From positions 819,665-883,664 of the forward strand of contig NZ_KI912608.1 in assembly GCF_000519265.1 (NCBI RefSeq): 64,000 bases of DNA. Direction: 5' to 3'. Of the stretch, positions 3,322-53,476 are shown piece after piece. Under the pieces are notes generated by a model. It ran no database searches, was not told the DNA's origin, and saw nothing but the letters and a program-made list of their open reading frames with translations. The stretch is from Desulfonatronum lacustre DSM 10312. GTDB taxonomy: Bacteria; Desulfobacterota; Desulfovibrionia; Desulfovibrionales; Desulfonatronaceae. How positions within the stretch are numbered: position 1 is the first letter of the stretch; every line of letters starts with the position of its first letter. The position numbers were made by a program, and so were the translations under genes.

Positions 3322-3493
3322 CTCCATGTTCGGTTCAGTTGCTATCCTGAATCTATCGGTATCGAAATCGTGATCGAAATCGAACCTCATGTCCAAGAAG
3401 ATGACTTAACACGAGGTATGCACGGCATTTTTCCGATTTCGATTTCCATCGCGATGTCGATACCGATTTGGTTTTGAGAACAAATCTGCCCTG
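3322..3493. repeat. Hexamer-array element, subfamily A copy 1 (left end decayed)
   Basis: Fills the gap between the kinase start and the DHH gene. It contains opposed ATCGAA-type arrays (GGTATCGAAATCG near 3358 and CCGATTTCGATTTCC near 3433) around a spacer that is also found in the copy at 53.2 kb (compare ATGTCCAAGAAGATGAC with ATGCCCAAGATGACG). The right end, GAGAACAAATCTGCCCTG at 3476-3493, matches the terminal inverted repeat of the other copies. The left terminal repeat is degenerate and no target duplication is evident, so this is an old copy. Confidence 0.7.
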
Positions 3494-9004: not shown

Positions 9005-9206
9005 CAGGGCATTTTTGTTCTCGCACTACAGGCGCTCTGAATCGTGATCGAAATCGAAATCGAAATCGGAAAGTTACCAAAAATCGATTTCGATCACGAT
9101 TTCGATTTCGATTTCGATGATTCCTGGCCCACCCTGGAGGTTCCCTTAGAACATGCTGCAATCTACAGTTTTGAAATACAGATATTTTGCAGAGAACAAA
9201 ACGGCC
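9005..9206. repeat. Hexamer-array element, subfamily B copy 1, with 13-bp direct repeats
   Basis: Left end CAGGGCATTTTTGTTCTC (9005-9022); right end GAGAACAAAACGGCC, its imperfect inverted complement. The direct repeat CGTCACCAGTCCG flanks it at 8992-9004 and 9207-9219. Inside, three or four ATCGAA units (from about 9042) face TTTCGAT units (from about 9088). It occupies most of the divergent gap between the Gate-domain gene and the hybrid kinase. It is the reverse-oriented relative of the copy at 51.6 kb. Confidence 0.85.
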
Positions 9207-9388
9207 CGTCACCAGTCCGTATCGCCTTTTTAGGCTGTGATTGACTTTGCCCGGACCTGTGCCCAGGATACAGCTGTTCGTAACAGAGTAGTCATGAATG
9301 TCCGCCGGTATTTCGGCCGGTATCTCGGGCGCGTGCTCAGCAAAGCGGTGTTCGTGCCCGGAATCGCCCACCCACGAGATCGTATTTC

Positions 9389-51394: not shown

Positions 51395-51586
51395 GCAAAA
51401 TATCCTTGCAGTACAGGGTCGCCCCTTGCCGCGGGAATTGATCAAGCTCGACGCGAAGCACGCCAACCATGTTCATCATGAAAATCCGCACATTACCCGA
51501 GCCTTGCTCCACAGGCAAGAAAATGTGGGGAGAGTTCATGGTTTTCGGGCATCCGGGCATCAAGTGTTTTGAAGGCCACGCTCGGG

Positions 51587-51799
51587 CAGGGCCATTTTGT
51601 TCTCTGGAAAATGGCTATAATTTCAGAGTAGTATGTTTTAGGGTGTTCAAGGGGAACCCCCAAGGGTGGGCTGGCAATCATCGAAATCGCTATCGAAATC
51701 GTGATCGAAATCGATTTCTGATAACATTCCGATTTCGATCACGATTTCGATTTCGATACCGATCCTGAGTGCCCGTGGTTCGAGAACAAAATTGCCCTG
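51587..51799. repeat. Hexamer-array element, subfamily B copy 2, with 10-bp direct repeats
   Basis: Terminal inverted repeats CAGGGCCATTTTGTTCTC (51587-51604) and GAGAACAAAATTGCCCTG (51782-51799), 17 of 18 matching. Direct repeat CACGCTCGGG at 51577-51586 and 51800-51809. Inside, four ATCGAA-type units (from about 51681) face TTTCGAT units (from about 51730). It lies in the 543-nt divergent gap between the ExeA-like and MinD-like genes; the remaining gap sequence has no gene. Confidence 0.88.
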
Positions 51800-51937
51800 C
51801 ACGCTCGGGGAAAAGTTGTTGATTCCGTTCAGAAAGCCGGGTAATTGTAAAGATGGCAGCTTTAAAATTCCTGATGCCCGCGCAGGTCGAACCTTCATTT
51901 CGGCGTTGCAACCAGTTTCATTGATGGCGCTCAACCC

Positions 51938-53137
51938 ATGCTCGACAATACGACCGCACCTCGTTCGTCTGTTCAACAGGCACGCAAAGACGTCACGTCC
52001 CCGAAACGCAAAACCCGGACCATAGCCGTTGCCAGCGGCAAGGGCGGAGCCGGCAAGACGTCGGTGGCCGCTTGTCTGGCCTGGATATTGGCGGAGCAGG
52101 GACGAAGGGTTTGCCTGGTGGACGTGGATCTGGGCCTTTCCAATGTGGACGTGCTTCTGGGAATAACTCCCGGGCATACCCTGGAAGAGGTCGTTATCGA
52201 CAACCTTCCCATGGAGCAGGCCATCACCAGGGTGCGTCCGGGTCTGGACGTTATTTCAGGCGGCTCGGGGATCGCCGCCCTTACGGAGATGACCAAGGCA
52301 AAACAGATCGATTTCTTGAAGAAAATCAAATCGCTGGACAGCTATGATTTTTTGCTCCTGGATAATGCGCCGGGAATCCATCGGCAGGTTGTCGCCTTTT
52401 GCCTGGCCGCCAGGGAACAGGTCATCGTCGTCAACCCCGAACCGACCTCCGTAACCGACGGATACGCACTGCTCAAGGTCCTTCGGCAGAACGGACTGCG
52501 TCGACCGCCTTATATCCTGCTGAACAAGGTTAAAGAGGGCTTTGACCACGCAACGCTGATCAAACGCTTCGCCGCTGTCTGCAAAAAGCACCTGGGAGCG
52601 CTGATCCTTCCGCTGGGCGCCGTCCCCGAGGATCCCGTCTTCCATGTTGCTTCGACCCGGTCCGTACTGCCCGTGGCCTTTCGGCCCCAAGCCCCCGGGT
52701 CCCTGGCCCTGACCCGGGTGGCCAACCTGATCGTCAAGCGCATGGCTCCGGAAACCCTGCATTCTCATTTCCACGGCTTCTGGGCTGCTTCGCTGTTCAC
52801 GATGTTCCAGGGGCTGCACCTGCCCGCGGACGGAGCGTCCACGGCAAGCCCGAAGACGTCTCCCCCCTCCGCCGCGCCTCCGGCGTCGCCCGAAGCCGAA
52901 ACGCGACCTTCGGTTCAGGACGTGGTTCAACGCCTGGACCACGTCGTAGCGGAGTTGGCCGACACAGTGGCCAAAAGCATACGGCATCCCCAGGCTTCCC
53001 CTTCGGAAGACGCTTCAGAGGCAGCGCACCGCTTGGCTCTTACGGCGGAGCGGTTGCAACGCCTCGCGGAAATCTGGAAGAAGGCGGCCATGTCCTCGCT
53101 CAAGGCTTCGACGGCCAACCCGGACGCGAAGCCATGA
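51938..53137 (+). CDS. MinD/FlhG-like P-loop ATPase
   Basis: 399 aa. Deviant Walker A GKGGAGKTS near residue 34-42, DVDLGLSNVDVLLG, and Walker B region YDFLLLDNAPGI, as in FlhG/YlxH rather than ParA (no HTH). The C-terminal about 110 residues are a Pro/Ala/Ser linker plus a helix (VVQRLDHVVAELADTVAKS) with no known domain. FlhG-type proteins set the number or position of polar machines. It diverges from the pilus locus and no flhF lies beside it, so a role in pilus placement is an inference. The start codon has only a weak ribosome binding site. Confidence 0.87.
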   Translation: MLDNTTAPRSSVQQARKDVTSPKRKTRTIAVASGKGGAGKTSVAACLAWILAEQGRRVCLVDVDLGLSNVDVLLGITPGHTLEEVVIDNLPMEQAITRVRPGLDVISGGSGIAALTEMTKAKQIDFLKKIKSLDSYDFLLLDNAPGIHRQVVAFCLAAREQVIVVNPEPTSVTDGYALLKVLRQNGLRRPPYILLNKVKEGFDHATLIKRFAAVCKKHLGALILPLGAVPEDPVFHVASTRSVLPVAFRPQAPGSLALTRVANLIVKRMAPETLHSHFHGFWAASLFTMFQGLHLPADGASTASPKTSPPSAAPPASPEAETRPSVQDVVQRLDHVVAELADTVAKSIRHPQASPSEDASEAAHRLALTAERLQRLAEIWKKAAMSSLKASTANPDAKP

Positions 53138-53218
53138 GCCCTTGGCTGAAGCGAGAAGGCGACCTATTCTGAAAGAGGTTTTGCTTGCCCCCCTTTTCGT
53201 CGCCCTCCTATGAGAAAG

Positions 53219-53383
53219 CATGGCAGATTTGTTTTCGTTCCTCACCCACTATCTGAACGGTATCGAAATCGAATTCGAGCTTCATGCCCAAGATGACGCA
53301 ATCACCGGGTGATGCACAGCATTTTCCGATTCTGATTCCGATTTCGATCGCGATTGATTTTGAGGAGAACAGATTTGTCCCCT
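53219..53383. repeat. Hexamer-array element, subfamily A copy 2, with 10-bp direct repeats
   Basis: Imperfect inverted ends: ATGGCAGATTTGTTTTC at left and GAGAACAGATTTGTCCCCT at right. The direct repeat TATGAGAAAG flanks it at 53209-53218 and 53384-53393. Inside, GGTATCGAAATCGAATTCG faces CCGATTTCGATCGCG, with a spacer shared with the 3.3-kb copy. It follows the MinD-like gene by about 80 nt. Confidence 0.82.
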
Positions 53384-53445
53384 TATGAGAAAGGCCTGGG
53401 TTTGACTTTACGAGCCACTCTTTACTAAACTTTTTTTTGGTGACG

Positions 53446-53476
53446 GCCATCCCGGTGGTTCCGGGAGGGCTTTTTT
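53446..53476 (+). terminator. Rho-independent terminator before dapL
   Basis: GCCATCCCGG TGGTT CCGGGAGGGC stem (one mismatch) followed by TTTTTT at 53471-53476. It closes the MinD-like transcript, so dapL needs its own promoter in the 60 nt that follow. Confidence 0.8.

Follow-up and report, generated by a model that had tools for sequence, protein, structure and literature searches.

Insertion sequences (IS) of the ISAs1 family generate target duplications of about 8 to 10 bp. Copies of 1.9 kb that belong to this family by NF033564, or by PF13808 with PF01609, are present in relatives of Desulfonatronum lacustre and share with the element described here 18 bp ends of the CAGGGC...GTTCTC type and a 10 bp duplication. 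Unlike these IS, the element has no transposase gene and an unrelated interior, and its host has no detected ISAs1 transposase. Among bacterial MITEs, MITEAba12 (PMC6382973) and those of Coxiella (PMC5896051) are, like the present family, short, non-coding, non-autonomous and IS-related with inverted-repeat ends; the hexamer-array palindrome and the in-place inversion of its loop, which are not known from them, distinguish the present family. The REP and REPIN sequences (PMC2817692, PMC3116915) are similarly palindromic, intergenic and high in copy number, but the present family differs in its terminal inverted repeats (TIRs), its 10 bp duplications and a partner transposase of the DDE type rather than a REP-associated tyrosine transposase.

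The window, which is the whole 64,000-nucleotide stretch of the D. lacustre DSM 10312 genome sequence that was analysed, contains an element at 51587-51799 that is here interpreted, with a probability of roughly 0.9, as a MITE that was moved by an ISAs1-family transposase and that carries a hexamer palindrome able to flip in place.

Structure of the element

The 213 bp element has 18 bp TIRs, two opposed arrays of ATCGNN hexamers and a perfect 10 bp target site duplication (TSD), CACGCTCGGG. Across 51577-51809 the order is TSD, left TIR, asymmetric arm, opposed arrays with a 16 nt loop, right TIR and TSD (Table 1). The inverted ends, opposed arrays and duplication that the original prediction placed here are thus all confirmed in the sequence. 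The right TIR is the reverse complement of the left with a mismatch at 1 of the 18 positions, and the two hexamer arms have 88% complementarity over 34 nt. As single-stranded DNA the 213 bp give -52.3 kcal/mol, against -24.2 +/- 3.4 for shuffled sequences (z = -8.4).

Table 1. Positions in the window of the parts of the element and of the other family copies.
Feature	Position	Strand	Remarks
Left TSD copy, 10 bp, CACGCTCGGG	51577..51586	+	Identical to 51800-51809; family-level TSD statistics
Left TIR, CAGGGCCATTTTGTTCTC	51587..51604	+	Similar ends on ISAs1-family IS of relatives
Asymmetric outer arm, type A interior	51605..51679	+	17-copy alignment; mean pairwise identity 0.75
Left ATCGNN hexamer array (hairpin arm)	51680..51713	+	
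Hairpin loop, inverted relative to family majority	51714..51729	+	
Right opposed hexamer array (hairpin arm)	51730..51763	+	
Right TIR, GAGAACAAAATTGCCCTG	51782..51799	-	
Right TSD copy, 10 bp	51800..51809	+	Identical to 51577-51586
Second complete type A copy	9005..9209	-	Flanked on each side by TSD CACCAGTCCG; loop inverted here too
Type B copy	53219..53382	+	TATGAGAAAG on both sides; 872883-873046 in the host genome (G000)
Decayed copy	3345..3493	.	Retains hexamer arrays and, of the ends, only the right TIR (3476-3493); left boundary approximate

The element is flanked by a divergent gene pair, an AAA ATPase with a SPOR domain on the minus strand (ORF start at 51466) and a ParA/MinD-like ATPase on the plus strand (start at 51938). 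Reading frames without stops cross the hexamers, yet there is no plausible gene within the 213 bp. Short, non-coding and bounded by TIRs, the element has the form of a MITE. Hexamers of the ATCGAA type are free of stop codons in all frames and so give spurious ORFs containing RNRNRF or IEIE/DFDF runs; those at 51469-51768 on the plus strand and 53208-53450 on the minus strand of the window could be mistaken for genes in annotation.

Copies in the host genome and empty sites in relatives

The host genome is a single contig of 3.76 Mb, which its protein relatives place in the Desulfovibrionales and probably in the Desulfonatronaceae. A nucleotide search of it matched about 40 separate loci; most of those near full length have 71-83% identity. 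The 18 bp end, with 3 or fewer mismatches, matches the genome 114 times, compared with 4 times for the reversed control, and the hexamer-hairpin pattern has 30 matches per strand, compared with 0 for its control; chance does not account for such numbers. Copies were defined by pairing ends 90 to 420 bp apart within the retrieved stretches, and 35 well-supported copies were kept. The 10 bp flanks match in register at a minimum of 8 positions in 23 of these 35 and perfectly in 10; between flanks of different copies, agreement of at least 8 in 10 was seen in 1 of 1190 cross-pairs. Moving one end by one base brings further copies into agreement. Against this control, the TSD of the family has a fixed length of 10 bp. 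Several more copies retain only the right end, which indicates that the family is old in this genome.

To look for empty sites, flanks were joined with one duplication removed and searched across the genus, the sites being derived by alignment to the exact flanks. The 1818807 copy has an uninterrupted site with one GGAGTTGATG-like copy in two relatives (L159 and L174), and the 2329413 copy has a nearly identical uninterrupted TCGTCACACC site in one (L167). Less clean, element-free orthologous regions correspond to the copies at 550501, 1144042 and, in the window, 9005 (L235). For the 1150753 copy, divergence left the alignments unreadable, and among the matches listed in this search of the genus no relative had the flanks of the 51587 copy itself. 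The element therefore belongs to a dispersed MITE family with empty sites. The origin by transposition without coding capacity that had been proposed is supported by the TIRs, TSDs and empty sites: further copies with the same ends exist, their flanks do repeat, and the expected sites with a single duplication copy are found in relatives at the level of the family.

In contig C8 of the relative G007 (L236, 646-785), a 140 bp type A copy has lost nearly the whole hexamer palindrome and retains its ends and a near-perfect 10 bp duplication. It seems to have arisen by a separate insertion into the intergenic region that in the host has the window copy at 9005.

Three interiors on one set of ends

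The same ends enclose three kinds of interior, as expected if the transposase needs only the ends. Type A, which includes the copies at 51587 and 9005, is about 200-220 bp and has an asymmetric arm and a tight hexamer hairpin. In type B (about 150-200 bp, including 53219-53382) the hexamers surround a longer loop. Type C, of about 250 bp, has a different long palindrome without hexamers; one copy was seen in the host genome (2801215-2801464) and there are more in relatives. Type C copies across the genus also have 10 bp duplications, many of them exact.

Three complete type C copies in G007 are 93-95% identical to each other. Four contigs of this genome (L257-L260) start exactly 121 bp inside an element end, which suggests assembly breaks at near-identical copies and recent activity. 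A type C element is at the same site in the host (L026, 2801215) and in G004 (L269, C3). The flanks there are 97% identical, closer than most other flank matches between the two genomes, and this suggests that the region was exchanged recently.

Probable partner insertion sequences

A search of the host genome found no ISAs1-family transposase, and its MITE copies are therefore probably now immobile. The full-length IS with the same ends that the original prediction sought does exist, in relatives only, and it is of the ISAs1 family. In G007, of the same genus, an IS of 1913 bp on contig C399 has the ends CAGGACGATTTTATTCTC and CAGGGCAAATTTGTTCTC. Its transposase scores above the cut-off of NF033564; the first ORF has DruA (PF14236) and DDE_Tnp_1_assoc (PF13808) domains and the second DDE_Tnp_1 (PF01609). 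In G033, from another family of the order, two 1916 bp IS copies have the ends CAGGGCCAATTTATGCTC and CACGGCAAATTTGTTCTC and are flanked by the 10 bp duplications GGTATCTGTT and CCCCTTGCCC. The G033 transposase copies are 67-68% identical to the C-terminal part of that of G007. The MITE and the IS are alike in their ends only, with no internal sequence in common. The 10 bp duplications on the MITEs and on two full-length IS fall within the length range of ISAs1-family duplications. Since ends, duplication length and transposase class agree, the MITE is inferred to have been moved by a transposase of this family. The enzyme, with its N-terminal DruA-like domain, would have bound the 18 bp ends and acted in trans. 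It counts against this explanation that nothing but the ends is common to the two, that the candidate IS from the same genus (G007) has no visible TSD and that the IS flanked by TSDs come from a different family within the order.

The transposase is split into two ORFs in all three copies (L156 772-2576 in G007; L189 and L208 371-2166 in G033), the split in G007 being located just past CCCAAAAAAAG; programmed frameshifting may make the split protein. The DruA domain is otherwise known from the Druantia defence system.

Conservation of the hexamer arms

Mean pairwise identity was measured on the type A copies without inverted loops. The hexamer arms have values of 0.93 and 0.96 and the TIRs of 0.93 and 0.88; the loop has 0.86, and the outer arms have 0.75 (left) and 0.81. 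The hexamer arms are thus as conserved as the TIRs, and the remaining interior has drifted.

Such arms, together with the strong hairpin and the location of most copies between predicted genes (on a home-made gene call of the host genome), are what might be seen if the host retained the element as a functional RNA or regulatory hairpin, such as a terminator, an mRNA stabiliser or a small RNA, its spread being secondary. This is unlikely. Compensatory changes are nearly absent (covariation term 0.04), so the conservation does not look like selection on RNA structure. No promoter- or terminator-like site was found in the element, and a search of Rfam gave nothing near a gathering score; the weak microRNA matches are generic matches to long hairpins, far below their cut-offs. 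Tandem, divergent and convergent neighbouring genes occur around the copies at close to background frequencies, with no strong bias in orientation, and the orientation of the loop is itself not conserved. Correction between the arms within the palindrome could produce uniform arms without selection, and selection on the DNA sequence itself is another possibility.

Inversion of the loop

When 17 type A copies are aligned, the loop is reverse-complemented in those at 51587, 9005 and 3477232, with outer arms collinear with the rest. Over all 36 retrieved type A loci, 7 loops are inverted and 29 have the majority orientation. In type B copies, whose arms are less well matched, no inversion was found once wrong-strand matches were set aside; the apparent type B inversions seem to be cases in which the marker matched hexamers of the opposite strand.

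It might be argued that the hexamers are merely slippage-prone simple repeats and that an inverted loop arose once, in a source element, and was spread by transposition. Array length does vary between copies, the one at 3437629 having about 11 units in one arm. However, inverted loops are found in several outer-arm backgrounds, of different subtypes, and the two orientations occur in different species at one orthologous insertion. This insertion, beside a 307-aa gene, has the inverted loop in G003 (L108) and G001 (L119) and the majority loop in G007 (L128), and its flanks are conserved and collinear among the three. A single origin by this route is accordingly quite improbable. Opposite orientations at one orthologous site, which is the clearest case, demonstrate that the hairpin loop flips in place without loss of the element.

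For a MITE with a palindrome whose loop flips in place, the most likely mechanism would be either strand switching or recombination from one hexamer arm to the other, as the DNA is replicated or the hairpin is extruded. Together with slippage, such events between the arms would both keep the arms uniform and alter the number of repeats.

Distribution

With 1 or fewer mismatches, the end motif is present in 8 of 8 genomes of the genus; beyond the genus, 4 further genomes of the order have it as single copies or as one pair. A sample of 395 genomes from across the phylum contains 2 with the strict hexamer-hairpin pattern, one of them the host, and the pattern is therefore not a general feature. 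A separate dispersed repeat with tens of copies (L240-L252) is present in G018, a genome from another family of the order. In this repeat opposed ATCGNN arrays form a palindrome, but its loop and borders differ and the TIRs of the MITE family are lacking. Many of these copies begin GCTCGTATGAAACTTC.

Because this unrelated family also has an ATCGNN palindrome, it can be tentatively suggested, as a possibility and not the likelier case, that the palindrome is an invertible, self-homogenising module that has been acquired by unrelated dispersed repeats in different genera of the Desulfovibrionales. It may perhaps have spread by virtue of aiding transposition or of being bound by a host protein.

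Short palindromic intergenic sequences in high copy number could also be REP/BIME-like elements that depend on a RayT-type transposase. That the repeats are of this kind, and not MITEs at all, is scarcely credible, since REPs do not have TIRs with target duplications and this family has both, a DDE transposase with similar ends exists, and the TSDs and empty sites contradict it.

Conclusions

The element is a genuine MITE for which a partner family is likely, and in this respect it is ordinary; what is unusual is its invertible hexamer core. No description of the element, or of such a palindrome or inversion in MITEs, was found in a search of the open-access literature, and we know of no report of a MITE that combines a hexamer-array palindrome with in-place inversion of its loop. 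The inversion, the three interiors on the same ends and the hexamer palindrome in an unrelated family of another genus all go beyond what was originally predicted for the locus.

Where its partner transposase has been identified, a MITE family is a useful natural record of transposition, and here the ends, the duplication length, the empty sites and the partner IS are all concordant. The family raises the question of why a simple hexamer palindrome should match, in its degree of conservation, the sites that the transposase presumably binds. Rearrangement at long inverted repeats has been studied mostly with artificial palindromes; the in-place inversion of a short loop within a natural palindrome is a chromosomal record of this process.
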